A stretch of DNA of 64,000 nt from a virus. The number at the start of each line of letters is the position of its first letter. The stretch's first letter is position 1. The notes beneath the pieces were generated by a model. The model saw nothing but the letters and a program-made list of their open reading frames with translations. It was not told the DNA's origin and ran no database searches. Position numbers and translations under genes: made by a program. This document shows, piece after piece, positions 2,957 through 63,949 of this stretch. The stretch covers positions 34,323-98,322 of the IMG/VR virus record IMGVR_UViG_2077657010_000001; one strand, given 5' to 3'.

Positions 2957-3149
2957 GCCTATTTTGTTTTCCCCTCACTCTTCTTCTCTTTCTCTTCCCC
3001 CCTTTAAAATCCCCCTTTCTCTATCTCTTCTTCTCTCTCCCCTTTCTGGTCGCCTCTCCAGTCAGGGCCCCCCACATAGGGGCCCCCTTCCCAAGGAGCG
3101 GCTCAAAGGCGTCTTCAAAAGAAGACTAAGTGCGTAAAAAAATACAGGA
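2957..3149. other. Intergenic pyrimidine tract and small palindromes
   Basis: No credible gene lies here; the only forward frame is low-complexity Ser/Leu/Pro. From about 2965 to 3055 the forward strand is almost all C and T in runs of TCTTCTCT and CCCC. It is followed by a GC palindrome (GGGCCCC ... GGGGCCC, about 3066-3087) and a perfect GTCTTC-AAAA-GAAGAC hairpin (about 3111-3126). Such a tract may form triplex DNA or act as a protein-binding or replication site; function unknown. Confidence 0.5.
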
Positions 3150-3209
3150 AGTCTTCTAATCTCCCACGTATAAGATGTGGTATATACGTGGGTAGTAGAT
3201 TAGAAGACT
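3150..3209 (-). terminator. Long two-part hairpin between converging genes
   Basis: The outer arms AGTCTTCTAATCT (3150-3162) and its complement (3197-3209) pair over 13 bp. The inner arms CCCACGTATA and TATACGTGGG (3163-3172/3183-3192) pair over 10 bp, with a TAGT bulge and a 10-nt loop. Read on the reverse strand the hairpin is followed by CCTGTATTTTTTTA, so it probably ends the reverse gene at 3221. It is much longer than the other terminators here. Confidence 0.6.
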
Positions 3210-3220
3210 CTATTTGGGTT

Positions 3221-16640: not shown

Positions 16641-16663
16641 AGGGTAGGTCTCGTGCCTACCCT
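16641..16663 (+). terminator. Intrinsic terminator
   Basis: AGGGTAGG and CCTACCCT pair perfectly around a 7-nt loop; a T-rich stretch (AGTTTATTTT) follows. Confidence 0.7.
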
Positions 16664-16670
16664 AGTTTAT

Positions 16671-16695
16671 TTTGGGTATATATCACTGTGATGTA
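16671..16695 (+). promoter_or_regulatory. Promoter-like element, divergent member of the repeated family
   Basis: TTTGGGTATATATCACTGTGATG shares the TATATATCA core and a GTGA with the elements at 1453 and 63496, but the spacing between the two halves is shorter. It lies directly before the small gene starting near 16704. Confidence 0.45.
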
Positions 16696-16703
16696 ATGTA
16701 ATT

Positions 16704-17042
16704 ATGATGGAGATTATGATGGAGATTAAGATGGTGAAAGATGAGCTCTATATACGCAGTGGTGTGTTAGATGTTGAGGAAGGAATGGATGTGGAGTGGT
16801 GTAACTATGCCACAGGGCTATACCTTGCATGTAATTTGGGACAGTTGCTCCTTCTCAGTAAGTACGCTGGGTATAACCACTCGATGTGGCCAGTAGTGGT
16901 TAGTACTGTATCACACACACCAACATATCGGGAGTTCTTGGATAGAGTAATCACATACATAGAGCAAACAAACCATGTATTGGATAGGGTTGTGGCTAAT
17001 TACCCACATGGTGTTAAACTTATAGTAATCACGGAGGTATGA
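16704..17042 (+). CDS. Unknown protein (up to 112 aa)
   Basis: No family recognised. The start is ambiguous because ATGATGGAGATT is repeated in tandem: ATGs at 16704, 16707, 16716, 16719 and 16731 are all in frame. GGAG copies serve 16719 and 16731 equally well (6-base spacing). The body is soluble and mixed. It follows a promoter-like element and overlaps the ribosome site of the next gene, so it is probably first in a two-gene early unit. Confidence 0.65.
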   Translation: MMEIMMEIKMVKDELYIRSGVLDVEEGMDVEWCNYATGLYLACNLGQLLLLSKYAGYNHSMWPVVVSTVSHTPTYREFLDRVITYIEQTNHVLDRVVANYPHGVKLIVITEV

Positions 17043-17045
17043 CTA

Positions 17046-17675
17046 TTGCGTGGTTCGTTTATTAATTATTTGTACATCCCAAGTGGGCGTGTTAAAGATC
17101 AAATTAAACGTATGTGGAAAAACGCTTATGACGATAACCATATTCACTTACTACCACTATCTGACCAAATGATGCTCCAAAGTGTTTATTTGGAGTTCCT
17201 TAGCCTTTTGATTTCTTTTATCTTAGACGTTAACCGTAACTTGATAGACATTAATGAGAAGTACGTCTTTGACCACCTTGTCTTTAATGAGATGAATACT
17301 TTTGATAATTACTTTGACAATTACTTCACACAACCTGATGAGTTAATCGAATCTGCAAACGACTTAGGGGATGCAGTATTAGATGACTTTAGTAATTTCA
17401 ACCACCCTGTGGGTGATTTGATATGTATTTATCAGACGACATCCGATATTGAATATGAGCATGAATGGCAGGAGCTGATGAATAGGGCAAATAAAAATAT
17501 GGGTGATTTGTGGTACACCATGAATGACACACATTCACTGTACCGTGAGTTAGAGAGACATCTACATGATGACTTTTCCCGGCGTGGCATGTACCGAATC
17601 ACACATCCTATATCCTCGGTTGAGTTCCATCGAGGATGTGCGTCAAAATGCATCATCCGTTTCGATGACAAATAA
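17046..17675 (+). CDS. Unknown acidic helical protein (209 aa)
   Basis: No family recognised. It starts at TTG 17046, with GGAGG 8 bases upstream; the only nearby ATG is out of frame and closes quickly. The start is 3 bases after the previous stop, so the genes are coupled. Rich in Asp, Asn and hydrophobics, it looks alpha-helical. A terminator follows immediately. Confidence 0.7.
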   Translation: MRGSFINYLYIPSGRVKDQIKRMWKNAYDDNHIHLLPLSDQMMLQSVYLEFLSLLISFILDVNRNLIDINEKYVFDHLVFNEMNTFDNYFDNYFTQPDELIESANDLGDAVLDDFSNFNHPVGDLICIYQTTSDIEYEHEWQELMNRANKNMGDLWYTMNDTHSLYRELERHLHDDFSRRGMYRITHPISSVEFHRGCASKCIIRFDDK

Positions 17676-17677
17676 AA

Positions 17678-17708
17678 AGAGGGGCACTTACCCCTCTCTT
17701 TTTTTTGC
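17678..17708. terminator. Terminator between converging genes
   Basis: AGAGGGG-CACTTA-CCCCTCT, then a long T run. It sits exactly between the forward 209-residue gene and the reverse 304-residue gene. Confidence 0.8.
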
Positions 17709-18623
17709 CTATTTTGATAGATCTTCAATCTTGTTTCGCGTATCTTCCAACGCTTTAGACACGACTTTGGCTTTCTGGCAGATGTGCCCATAGAACTCTA
17801 CCCATGCCGCCGCCATATACATACGGTCGGTCAACATATCAACAATCTTGTCATTGACATCTAACGACTCTGTATTAATCTGCTCTGCGATGTTTGTCGC
17901 ATAATCATGGATAGTTTTCATGCACTCACGTACACTGGTATGGTTGATACGGTTCAGATTGTCTTGTAGCTGCAACACACGTTCGGATGTAATGTTTAAG
18001 TCTTGATTTCGACTATACACTTTTTTGAACTTCTCTTTATCGGTACGCTGTCGCGGATCGAAACATTCACTGATGTCGCTAATTAATTTATCTAGTCGCT
18101 TTTGACTATACTCTGTTTTCGTTTTATTTTCCAACGGGAGTACTTTACGGCTATTGAGTAAATCAGGCTCGTTGACATACTTACCCATCAATGTACGTAA
18201 TGGAATTAGCAACCCATCATTAATATTCGCCAGATACTCTACTGACTCCTCCAGGGTTTCAATATATTCCAACATGCTAACTTTAAGACCCACTGGAACA
18301 TATACCGTGACATCCCCGATAGAGAGGTACGGATTGCGGTCTAGCCAATTGATAGAGGTCTTACCTAGACCATTTTGGTGTTCGAACTTGACCAGTTCTT
18401 TATTGCCACCAAATAGCGTTTGAAATATGGAATCTACACGTGCTGTGAGCATCGAGCGTAGACCGTCATTGAATGTTTCTTGGAAGTTGGCTTTTGTGTC
18501 ACCACGCTCCATGCCGATATAGCAAGTTTGGCGAGCTTGCTGGTGTTTGATGAGTACCGGCAACTCTGTCGTATTCGTATTCACAGGGACATACTCCATT
18601 ATTTTATTAAGACTGACAAGCAT
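17709..18623 (-). CDS. Unknown protein, possible virion component (304 aa)
   Basis: No family recognised. Mostly helical, with likely coiled-coil stretches in the C-terminal half (about 150-300). Neither possible ATG (18623 or an in-frame one at 18599) has a clear ribosome site, so the N-terminus is uncertain; I kept the longer form. Like the other reverse-strand genes of this window it stands apart from the forward blocks and may be a late structural gene. Confidence 0.6.
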   Translation of the reverse strand: MLVSLNKIMEYVPVNTNTTELPVLIKHQQARQTCYIGMERGDTKANFQETFNDGLRSMLTARVDSIFQTLFGGNKELVKFEHQNGLGKTSINWLDRNPYLSIGDVTVYVPVGLKVSMLEYIETLEESVEYLANINDGLLIPLRTLMGKYVNEPDLLNSRKVLPLENKTKTEYSQKRLDKLISDISECFDPRQRTDKEKFKKVYSRNQDLNITSERVLQLQDNLNRINHTSVRECMKTIHDYATNIAEQINTESLDVNDKIVDMLTDRMYMAAAWVEFYGHICQKAKVVSKALEDTRNKIEDLSK

Positions 18624-23934: not shown

Positions 23935-23960
23935 CCTGCACTGTTAAGTGAGGATTAGAA

Positions 23961-24359
23961 ATGAGCAAGAAAAAGCTACAAGATGCCGTAGCCAATCCCG
24001 TAGAGCAAGTGAAGCGTTCTACGAATAACTTACTGGGTCGAGTGTATTGGATACTTATCGATAAACTAGACCTTAGCATGGAGGCGATAACGTTATCGTT
24101 AAACCGATATGTGAGAGACCCGAGAAATGGGGTGGTACAAACCTCGCATAAGCGAAGTGAAAAGATTTCTAACTTAACGGGTGAGTTGACTAATCACAGT
24201 CGTATGAGTTGGAATAAATTCATCGAAGGGCTTAAAGTCATTGAGGTTACTAGGGTGCGTATAACCTTTGAAGTGTGGCGTGGTAAGCGTGATACTTACG
24301 CAAAGACTGTCATCGATCAGAAAATGTCCGACCTTGAAACCTCTGACGAAGAAAATTAA
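23961..24359 (+). CDS. Unknown basic protein (132 aa)
   Basis: No family recognised. The ATG follows GTGAGGATTAGAA. Lys/Arg-rich and helical (MSKKKLQDAVANPVEQVKRS), with an acidic tail (DLETSDEEN). The basic body could bind nucleic acid. I considered an RNA polymerase beta' fragment because of the setting but see no beta' motif. Confidence 0.65.
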   Translation: MSKKKLQDAVANPVEQVKRSTNNLLGRVYWILIDKLDLSMEAITLSLNRYVRDPRNGVVQTSHKRSEKISNLTGELTNHSRMSWNKFIEGLKVIEVTRVRITFEVWRGKRDTYAKTVIDQKMSDLETSDEEN

Positions 24360-56650: not shown

Positions 56651-58765
56651 ATGATATTAAGGGAAAATGACTGGTATCGGCCTGAATACAAAAATGCGAT
56701 CATCCACTACAGTACAAAGAACCAATCATTCTTGAAGCTAGCAGCGATTCACAGAAAGATGGGTGTTAAGCACTGGTACTGCTGTCTCGCACTTATCAAT
56801 CCTAACCTCGAGTTTATTGATCCACATAGTCCTGACTTGACACTTGACCAACAGACCGAAGTCGTTATTGAGATGTTGATAAACCCATGGTATTTTTTCC
56901 GTGAGTTTGTCAGGGTGCCCGTTGAAGGTGAGTATGTTCCCTTTGAAATTCATCGTGGGTCATTTACACTGATATGGGCATTTTTTAATAACATCGATAT
57001 TGCCCTACTGCTTATCCGTCAGCGTGGTAAAACTGTGACGGTTGCATGTCTATTGACTTACCTTAAGCGTATCTTGAAAGGTGCAAGGACAATCCTTATC
57101 ACTAAAGATAACACATTGCGTACTGAAACATTAACAAAGATGAAGAAGATACGTGATGGGTTGCCGGGGTATGCATGGAGAAGTAGTCGGGATGATGCAG
57201 ATAACAATGAAGTCTTTACCTATAAGGCGAGGGATAACGTATTAGTTACCGCTATCGCACAAGGCTCGATTGCAGCCGCTGAGAATGCGGGACGTGGACT
57301 TACATGTGCACGATTGTTTGGGGATGAGGTTGCCTTTATTCGATTCATTCGTAAAATGCTAGCAGCCGCACTCGCATCCGGCTCACGTGTACGTATCACA
57401 GCAGAGGAACGTGGTATTCCCTACGGTAACGTATTTACTACAACGCCGGGTAAGCGTGACAGTGAAGATGGGCGGTATATTTACGACATGTTCCATGCTG
57501 GGCGATATTGGGATGAGTCTATGCTGGATATACCGACACGAGGTGAGTTGATTGACCATATCAGCAAAAACTCTACCGGTGACCGTGTATTGATTCATGC
57601 GCCGTTTAACCACCGTCAGTTAGGTATGACAGACCGTGAGTTGTACCTCGCCATGGCTAACGCTGGTGGTACTCGTGAAGAGCAGCAACGTGACTTTGGT
57701 CTGCAGTGGACTGCAGGTACCATGTCATCGCCTATCAGTGCTGATGATTCTAAACGCATACGTGAAAGTGTATGTGATCCTATCCCCTATGTTGAGATTT
57801 TCAAAAACACCTATTGTATTAACTGGTATTACAAGCAACACGAAATCGATACAAAGATGCGTGCTAAACACATCATTGGTGTCGATACCTCGGATGCGGT
57901 AGGTCGAGATAATATTGCATTGGTAATGATTAACAGTGAGACGTTGGAGACAGCGGCTACCGCGATTGTCAATGAGTCTAACTTAATTGTATTTTCAAAC
58001 TGGTTATCTGACATTCTAGTTAAGTATGAGAATACTATCTTGGTTATTGAGCGTAAGTCTTCTGCGCCGACTATCATAGATTCCATGCTCATTACCTTAC
58101 CATCGCGGGGAGTTGACCCATCCCGTCGTATCTTTAACCGTGTTGTGCAAGAACGTGATGCGAACGATCCCGATCTTGCTGAATTTACCAAATGTAATCG
58201 TGTCAAAAGTGAGGCTTTCTATGAAGCATACCGCAAGTTCTTTGGCTTCATGACTACGGGTACAAAACGTAAATTACTCTACGGTGAAGTGTTGCAAACT
58301 GCTATTAACATGGCAGGGGATAAAATCAAAGACAAGATGTTAGCCGATGAATTACTTGCACTTGTGGTTAAGGACGGTCGTATTGACCACAAGACTAGCG
58401 GTAATGACGATACCGTAATCGCATGGTTATTAGCTGTATGGTTCATGCTATTTGGTAATCGTCTGAATCACTACGGGGTCTCTAACCGTATACTGATGCG
58501 TCGACATGAAGCAGAAGCAAACGGTGATGATTTCGATAGTGAGGACTATCAACGTCGAGTCAAAGAGCAGGATGAGCTCAGCTCTGAGGTTGATGATATT
58601 TGTATGAAAATAGGGACTTCCTCTAACCCTTACGAGTTAGCTAACTTAAGACGGTTATTAAGAGTTAAACTGGCCAAACTCGATATTGATACGTCACATG
58701 CTAAGACCGTTGGGGAGTTGCGGGAAATTATTGGAAATGAAAAACTTAAGTCGAGGTACATATGA
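56651..58765 (+). CDS. Terminase large subunit (phiKZ gp25-like), 704 aa
   Basis: The packaging motor ATPase and nuclease. The adenine/Walker A region is LLIRQRGKTVT (about 119-129, with QRGKT at 124-128), Walker B LFGDEVAF has Asp225/Glu226, and the nuclease starts at IIGVDTSD (Asp412), with a further acidic site near DHKTSGNDD (about 577-585). Size and arrangement fit phiKZ-like large terminases. The ATG follows CTTGGAGGGTTT. No small terminase is recognised nearby, as is usual in this group. Confidence 0.94.
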   Translation: MILRENDWYRPEYKNAIIHYSTKNQSFLKLAAIHRKMGVKHWYCCLALINPNLEFIDPHSPDLTLDQQTEVVIEMLINPWYFFREFVRVPVEGEYVPFEIHRGSFTLIWAFFNNIDIALLLIRQRGKTVTVACLLTYLKRILKGARTILITKDNTLRTETLTKMKKIRDGLPGYAWRSSRDDADNNEVFTYKARDNVLVTAIAQGSIAAAENAGRGLTCARLFGDEVAFIRFIRKMLAAALASGSRVRITAEERGIPYGNVFTTTPGKRDSEDGRYIYDMFHAGRYWDESMLDIPTRGELIDHISKNSTGDRVLIHAPFNHRQLGMTDRELYLAMANAGGTREEQQRDFGLQWTAGTMSSPISADDSKRIRESVCDPIPYVEIFKNTYCINWYYKQHEIDTKMRAKHIIGVDTSDAVGRDNIALVMINSETLETAATAIVNESNLIVFSNWLSDILVKYENTILVIERKSSAPTIIDSMLITLPSRGVDPSRRIFNRVVQERDANDPDLAEFTKCNRVKSEAFYEAYRKFFGFMTTGTKRKLLYGEVLQTAINMAGDKIKDKMLADELLALVVKDGRIDHKTSGNDDTVIAWLLAVWFMLFGNRLNHYGVSNRILMRRHEAEANGDDFDSEDYQRRVKEQDELSSEVDDICMKIGTSSNPYELANLRRLLRVKLAKLDIDTSHAKTVGELREIIGNEKLKSRYI

Positions 58766-58983
58766 CAGTATTCACAATTTGGCTAGCATTATTACTCTGT
58801 AATATTGCTATTGTCGCAGCGGGTAGCCACTTATATTACGGGATATTACAACGTATCTCTACAATGAGTGGTGGTCTAAAACTACAGATAGCGGTGATCA
58901 TGACTGCATTGACGTTTAGTGCAACTGCGACCGCTAGCACATACCTTTATAGCATTCTGGAGGTCGTGCGTACTGTCCAATGA
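58762..58983 (+). CDS. Small membrane protein with two helices (73 aa)
   Basis: The start overlaps the terminase stop (ATGA). Two membrane segments are visible, about residues 4-27 and 42-65, with a short basic loop between. Size and topology fit a class II holin, but nothing besides topology supports that, and its place after terminase is unusual for a holin. Other small phage membrane proteins look alike. Confidence 0.6.
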   Translation: MTVFTIWLALLLCNIAIVAAGSHLYYGILQRISTMSGGLKLQIAVIMTALTFSATATASTYLYSILEVVRTVQ

Positions 58984-58985
58984 TA

Positions 58986-59020
58986 GGTAGGTAGGGCCAT
59001 TTGGCCCTACCTACTTTTTG
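58986..59020 (+). terminator. Strong intrinsic terminator
   Basis: GTAGGTAGGGCC and its complement form a stem of about 13 bp with an ATT loop, then TTTTTG. It ends the terminase unit. Confidence 0.88.
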
Positions 59021-59036
59021 TGCGATCACACAAAAA

Positions 59037-59072
59037 AAAATGGCGGAGTGGTCAAAAGACCACCCACCAAAA
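59037..59072 (-). terminator. Reverse-strand terminator
   Basis: On the reverse strand GTGGTC-TTTT-GACCAC is followed by TCCGCCA and nine Ts. It ends the reverse unit 59099-60736. Confidence 0.6.
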
Positions 59073-59098
59073 GTATCAACGTGTAATTCAGTCATTCA

Positions 59099-59392
59099 CT
59101 ACACTACAGCGACTGATGAGCCGCTGGGACATTGGCTTATAGTAAGCCATTGATTACATTTAATATTAAGTAGGCGTCCTCGTCTACACATCCCAATAAC
59201 GTGCGCATTTATACGACCGATCGTGGTCATCGCACGACGAGGACGTGCTCGCCTCACAGGTTCACTATATGTGGTCTCGCCTACTAAAGACCACAAAGAG
59301 GCTTCTATGTTATAAATATCATAAGTGCAGGACATCATTTTAGATGTGGAAAGTACACCAACAATGCCTGCAGATAATACAACAATATCCAT
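59099..59392 (-). CDS. Possible small protein with N-terminal hydrophobic segment (97 aa)
   Basis: ATG 59392 has GGAGG 6 bases upstream, better than the longer form starting at 59407. The N-terminal ~18 residues are hydrophobic (MDIVVLSAGIVGVLSTS), then the chain is basic and Cys/Arg-rich without a known family. It lies 36 bases after the 435-residue gene on the same strand and before a reverse terminator. The unusual composition leaves some doubt that it is expressed. Confidence 0.5.
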   Translation of the reverse strand: MDIVVLSAGIVGVLSTSKMMSCTYDIYNIEASLWSLVGETTYSEPVRRARPRRAMTTIGRINAHVIGMCRRGRLLNIKCNQWLTISQCPSGSSVAVV

Positions 59393-59428
59393 AGGCCACC
59401 TCCACAATATATACGGTTATGTATTTTT

Positions 59429-62776: not shown

Positions 62777-62790
62777 AGGCAAATAAAAAA

Positions 62791-63075
62791 AGGTACTGGG
62801 GAGGTTACCCTCCCCATACCACCCGGTGAGACATTCCGGTTTACGAGTAGACGACTAATGGCAGAAGTCGTTTTACGTCGATAAACGATAGCTTGACTGG
62901 CAAGTGCTTGAGCATATCGTTATTAGGGGTTGGGGGGTGAGACACCGCGACCCCATGGGTGTATCGGAACCCGACAAAAAATCACCCCCCGTGTAGAAGT
63001 TTATAACAGCTTAGCTGACATGCTATCACGAATGGGAAATGAGCAAGAAACACATTCGTACTGTAACTTCTACAT
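62791..63075 (+). ncRNA. Candidate structured noncoding RNA, about 285 nt
   Basis: No gene is present here. Many inverted repeats are perfect or near-perfect: GGGGAGG/CCTCCCC (62798-62804/62809-62815), ACGACT/AGTCGT (62851-62856/62866-62871), AACGATA/TATCGTT (62884-62890/62915-62921), GGGGGGTGA/TCACCCCCC (62932-62940/62982-62990) and ACGAATG/CATTCGT (63028-63034/63053-63059). The last is nested inside the 10-bp pair TGTAGAAGTT/AACTTCTACA (62992-63001/63065-63074), which stacks on ACAG/CTGT. Small hairpins such as TCGG-AAC-CCGA lie inside. There are no T runs, so these are not simple terminators. The strand is assumed from the neighbouring genes. No known RNA class recognised. Confidence 0.6.
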
Positions 63076-63121
63076 AATAATAACCTACCTGTAAAAAATA
63101 CCATTAGTAAAGGAGTTTAAG

Positions 63122-63944: not shown

Positions 63945-63949
63945 AAAAC

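Follow-up and report, generated by a model that had tools for sequence, protein, structure and literature searches.

Genomic setting of the locus

The window analysed here, 64,000 nt in length, comes from a virus contig of 98,322 bp. Its large terminase gene (terL, 56651-58765) encodes a protein with 69% identity to the terminases of the Vibrio jumbo phages pVa-21 and pVp-JHP1101 (JHP1101), and 43-44% identity to those of SPN3US-like and Erwinia phages. The annotation of JHP1101 includes a nuclear shell protein and several RNA polymerase subunits. From the terminase identities and this annotation we therefore regard the phage of the window as phiKZ-like.

Downstream of terL, a gap of 345 nt (62777-63121) separates a 126-aa gene from a 122-aa gene and holds a strongly structured stretch, 62791-63075. 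An earlier note had called this the longest gene-free stretch of the window, which does not hold in that form: when genes are limited to ORFs of 110 aa or more, other gaps reach at least 345 nt, and the interval 58984-59428 exceeds this length, provided that the minus-strand ORF located there is not a gene. The features predicted in the gap, all on the strand opposite to that of the neighbouring genes, are as follows.

63073 to 63098, minus strand: putative promoter TTTTTTACAGGTAGGTTATTATTATG, with G63073 taken as +1
62785 to 63073, minus strand: predicted non-coding RNA of ~289 nt, without a credible ORF; minimum free energy -96.1 kcal/mol and z -4.3 for these ends
62993 to 63073, minus strand: domain I, closed from nt 1 by a 9-bp helix, GUAGAAGUU/AACUUCUAC, with two arms inside
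63052 to 63035, minus strand: apical loop of domain I, the largest open loop of the RNA
62932 to 62990, minus strand: domain II, a 9-bp helix, GGGGGGUGA/UCACCCCCC, around two hairpins
62884 to 62921, minus strand: domain III, hairpin AACGAUA/UAUCGUU
62844 to 62880, minus strand: domain IV, hairpin of the predicted fold
62780 to 62820, minus strand: intrinsic terminator, a 12-bp hairpin of about -21 to -22 kcal/mol followed by a TTTTTTTATTTG tail

Folding of the intergenic stretch

Folding of 62791-63075 gave -102 kcal/mol (z -4.8) for the plus strand and -96.6 kcal/mol (z -4.0) for the minus strand, and on neither strand did any of 200 dinucleotide-preserving shuffles fold as well, in agreement with the strong structure that the earlier note had described. 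The same note had listed at least six inverted repeats, including two long-range stems that enclose further hairpins. The predicted fold contains more than six helices, and both long-range stems are present in it: GTAGAAGTT/AACTTCTAC of domain I pairs 63073-63065 with 63001-62993 at a mean pair probability of 0.99, and GGGGGGTGA/TCACCCCCC of domain II pairs 62990-62982 with 62940-62932 at 0.93. As had also been stated, 62791-63075 contains no credible reading frame, and none was found for the RNA strand within the window.

When ~3270 windows of 285 nt from the whole contig were ranked with their dinucleotide content allowed for, the stretch came 43rd on the plus strand (top 1.3%) and 74th on the minus strand (top 2.3%). 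Its structure is thus exceptional, yet not unique in the contig. Several other windows, coding ones among them, fold even better, as would be expected if the locus held no RNA gene at all and its appearance were due to chance hairpins and a stray terminator in a generally hairpin-rich phage genome; the failure of all 200 shuffles to fold as well argues against that explanation.

Searches for known RNA families returned nothing of significance. The window had no match at the gathering score of the Rfam covariance models (6S, SRP, RNase P, GOLLD, ROOL and others), relaxed thresholds applied to the stretch yielded chance-level matches only, and cmscan of the window element together with the elements of the relatives gave no significant hit. 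ARAGORN detected no tRNA or tmRNA gene in the window, and a sensitive blastn search of 50,697 phage records found no DNA homologue of the RNA.

Other structured stretches of the contig

Three further stretches stood out. The interval after terL, 58780-59420, folds far more strongly than 62791-63075, with z about -8 for either strand. A plus-strand terminator follows a 73-aa ORF in it. Its minus strand has a strong terminator (hairpin 59040-59066, T9 at 59031-59039) and an ORF of ~97-102 aa (59099-59407) that is equipped with a GGAGGTGG ribosome-binding site; the interval may represent a gene, a 3' UTR belonging to the 435-aa gene, or another structured RNA. The stretch 1530-2090, where a 186-aa reading frame with no known relatives has tandem perfect hairpins every 20-60 nt, likewise ranks near the top of the contig for structure. 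Finally, 2970-3220 consists of pyrimidine-rich non-coding sequence, resembling a pyrimidine-rich stretch of the pVa-21 gap, followed by an inverted repeat, AGTCTTCTAATCT ... AGATTAGAAGACT, that adjoins a TTTTTTTAC box on the minus strand.

A terminator and a putative promoter agree on the minus strand

On the minus strand, the outermost hairpin, GGTATGGGGAGG-GTAA-CCTCCCCAGTACC, runs directly into TTTTTTTATTTG and is therefore taken to be an intrinsic terminator. Its tail lies just outside 62791-63075, so that the absence of T runs noted earlier holds for the plus strand and fails for the minus strand. A hairpin followed by TTTTTATTTG is the habitual terminator of this phage: seven of the eight other such sites in the contig sit 9-35 nt past a stop codon on the same strand (one of these, at 17678, follows a minus-strand gene, 17709-18623, that the automatic gene picker had missed), and the eighth, at 63947, is the reverse side of a plus-strand terminator. 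Upstream of the site at 62789 there is no minus-strand gene as far as the contig end, so this terminator should end something non-coding. The presence of the phage's own tail on a gene-free strand is a second argument against a stray signal among chance hairpins.

At the other end of the stretch, the minus strand reads TTTTTTAC-N14-TATG (63098-63073). The pattern TTTTTTACN{5,18}TATG has this single match in the 64 kb, where 0.27 would be expected. Middle promoters of phiKZ carry AAanTTACc centred near -24, and its late promoters carry TATG, the G being the start site (PMC4666361); the layout found here resembles both motifs, TTAC and TATG. If G63073 is +1, the first base of the transcript also opens the 9-bp helix that closes domain I. 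The candidate thus appears to have a promoter of its own.

Since the promoter match, the 5' helix from +1 and the terminator agree on the strand, we assign the RNA to the minus strand. Of the earlier proposals, that of a phage noncoding RNA is thereby retained, now on this strand. The two strands of the window element fold about equally well, which we counted against a non-coding RNA gene, and the slight advantage of the plus strand (-102 against -96.6) would suit a structured UTR between the 126-aa gene and the 122-aa gene that stabilises or regulates their mRNA, as a read-through 3' region of the former and a 5' leader of the latter. No plus-strand terminator was found between the two genes, so read-through is possible. 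However, the T tract and the promoter motif lie on the opposite strand, in relatives the minus-type strand of the element gives the better fold (for the Vibrio pair and Derbicusvirus, the strand carrying promoter and terminator outfolds its complement), and no homologue of the 122-aa gene occurs at the loci of relatives. We consider such a plus-strand element unlikely, and the large 5' leader of the 122-aa gene, also proposed earlier, was set aside on the strand evidence.

The same anatomy recurs at the syntenic position in related lineages

The gene order around the gap (terminase; phrog_2921 on the minus strand; phrog_8136; at least one small plus-strand gene; gap) is shared with pVa-21/JHP1101, Derbicusvirus, Seoulvirus and Wellingtonvirus. 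At the syntenic position, a predicted promoter, a folded stretch and an intrinsic terminator follow one another in four related lineages.

Vibrio pair (pVa-21/JHP1101), syntenic gap, minus strand: predicted RNA of 276-278 nt
Derbicusvirus, syntenic gap, minus strand: predicted RNA of 135-139 nt
Seoulvirus, syntenic gap, plus strand: predicted RNA of 93-95 nt
Kwan, syntenic gap, plus strand: predicted RNA of ~323 nt

The motif TTTTTAC-N14-17-T[AC]TG was found once per syntenic gap in all five lineages (one representative each), and in shuffled gaps it was present in at most one of the five. This recurrence, taken with the terminator and the shuffled folds, makes an origin of the locus in chance hairpins quite improbable. 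In EarlPhillipIV, the motif also lies just upstream of the annotated genes gp64, gp74, gp122, gp199 and gp236, so it probably represents a general promoter class.

The orientation of the element varies, being plus in Seoulvirus and Wellingtonvirus, which we again counted against the reading as a non-coding RNA gene. Comparison of the RNA bodies between lineages revealed no similarity beyond that of shuffles; the bodies are not alignable, a further point against this reading, and common descent of the RNA across lineages is at most conjectural. Each alignable set of RNAs comprises two to five close relatives and does not include the window RNA. The IMG/VR loci with the nearest proteins (L011-L015) have gaps without an alignable RNA, a conserved word of the Vibrio RNA had no match in IMG/VR, and searches of IMG/VR with single neighbour proteins found nothing.

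The earlier note had named compensatory changes in the stems as what would support its RNA candidate. Within the Vibrio pair, whose RNAs are 78% identical, 78-80% of predicted pairs are kept, compared with 70% under random changes (23 and 7 of 1000 random sets did as well), and both partners have changed in 5-6 base pairs. For CR5 and Phobos, covariation was not in excess. These data hint at covariation in the relatives' RNAs, in the Vibrio pair only.

Several further observations concern the gaps of relatives. Both Vibrio phages carry, past the RNA terminator on the minus strand, a second near-identical hairpin with a TTTTATTTGCC tail (L002 8721, L003 9592), and the two hairpins are putative tandem terminators. 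Short ORFs annotated over the relatives' RNAs (L003 9693-9824, L069 735-872, L067 731-937) differ in strand and place, and so are probably over-annotation. In the gap of the IMG/VR relative L013, the promoter motif occurs twice on the plus strand, with no clear RNA end. The same gap has two similar cassettes (16655-16760 and 17340-17440, plus strand) ~690 bp apart, each laid out as TTTTTTACA...TATG, then CTTCCC...GGGGAAGGGGGG...GGGGGG. In Erwinia phage Kwan, the same intergenic region (L010 7593-7658, plus strand) has a sub-threshold match to the Rfam int-alpA RNA family (31 bits against a gathering score of 35.8; E 0.007).

The syntenic gaps of relatives measure ~0.5 to 1.75 kb and are among their largest intergenic regions, and adjacent or paired G tracts recur in several of them; in the window, GGGGTTGGGGGG lies at 62926. 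Both features would fit an element acting at the DNA level, such as a packaging site or, as in T4, a replication origin primed by a transcript, with the structure as a by-product. JHP1101 shows no GC-skew turning point at the locus, however, no iterons were seen, and a primer would not be expected to carry an intrinsic terminator. We hold this explanation to be very improbable.

A candidate antisense target

The loop of domain I contains, at 63036-63050 (minus strand), a 15-nt perfect antisense match to a start-codon region elsewhere in the window.

23958 to 23972, plus strand: possible target GAAATGAGCAAGAAA, containing the start codon of a 132-aa gene (23961-24359, phrog_4910)

A match of 15 nt to any start region of the contig was reached by one of 1000 dinucleotide shuffles of the RNA, and the energy of the duplex between the loop and GAAATGAGCAAGAAA is about -22 kcal/mol. 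The 132-aa gene is kept in pVa-21 and JHP1101 (63%). The search covered phage start regions, in less than half of the genome if its length is like that of relatives (~230 kb). When the RNAs of JHP1101 and EarlPhillipIV were compared with their own start regions, antisense matches were not above chance. Given this result, and since ATGAGCAAGAAA is a plausible common gene start, we treat the pairing as a lead and not as a result: the complementarity hints that the loop may act on the start region at 23961.

Interpretation

Taken together, these results make it likely that the gap contains a free-standing minus-strand non-coding RNA gene of a phiKZ-like jumbo phage, with a predicted transcript from 63073 to ~62785 and a putative function as set out below. 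The basis of this reading is computed, and comprises structure, promoter and terminator matches, synteny and loop complementarity. The literature searched contains no description of the locus and documents no transcript from it.

We propose that a phage RNA polymerase would transcribe the minus strand from the TTAC + TATG promoter at 63073 to ~62785, where the intrinsic terminator would end the transcript. The RNA would fold from its first base, and its stable domains would shield both ends. As its most likely mode of action, though a tentative one, it could then serve as a trans-acting riboregulator whose domain I loop would pair with a messenger. The leading candidate in the phage of the window is the start codon of the 132-aa gene at 23961, and the RNA would block translation of that gene. 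In related lineages, the same locus would hold an RNA gene of different sequence, with the same type of promoter and an intrinsic terminator.

In our opinion, the most interesting feature is that one locus repeatedly shows this promoter and terminator anatomy, with RNA bodies unrelated to one another. It is conceivable, although we put it forward tentatively, that nucleus-forming jumbo phages keep a slot for an RNA gene downstream of the terminase, in which this anatomy is constant while the body, and even its direction, is swapped in each lineage. If so, it would fit an RNA engaged in an arms race with the host, or one retuned to another target in each phage.

A phage non-coding RNA gene is an ordinary kind of thing, found here where few are known. 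Knowledge of free-standing genes of this type in nucleus-forming jumbo phages is scant. A recurrent locus for such an RNA, marked by a recognisable promoter of the phage-polymerase type, offers a concrete and cheap target across cultured phages (SPN3US-like, Derbicusvirus and pVa-21-like), and its confirmation would mean that the TTAC + TATG promoter class also serves RNA genes.

Comparison with known systems

The large ornate RNAs GOLLD, ROOL and OLE of phages and bacteria are larger than the RNA described here. The window RNA resembles them in being a large structured non-coding RNA (PMC12286853) and differs in matching no Rfam family, whether at gathering or at relaxed thresholds.

With stand-alone sRNA genes of bacteria and phages that end in an intrinsic terminator (Hfq-type antisense RNAs), the candidate has in common a predicted promoter of its own, a structured body, a terminator and an open loop complementary to a start codon. 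At ~290 nt, however, it is long for that class, and the pairing is seen in one lineage only.

Grad-seq of phiKZ has revealed non-coding RNAs of ~100 nt, between PHIKZ298 and PHIKZ297, and of 180 nt, from the 5' UTR of p40, which were described as UTR-derived (PMC8545117). Like the window RNA, they are structured, come from a phiKZ-like phage and lack good small ORFs. Set apart from them by that description, and by its place downstream of terL on the strand opposite to its neighbours, the RNA of the window has a predicted promoter and terminator of its own.
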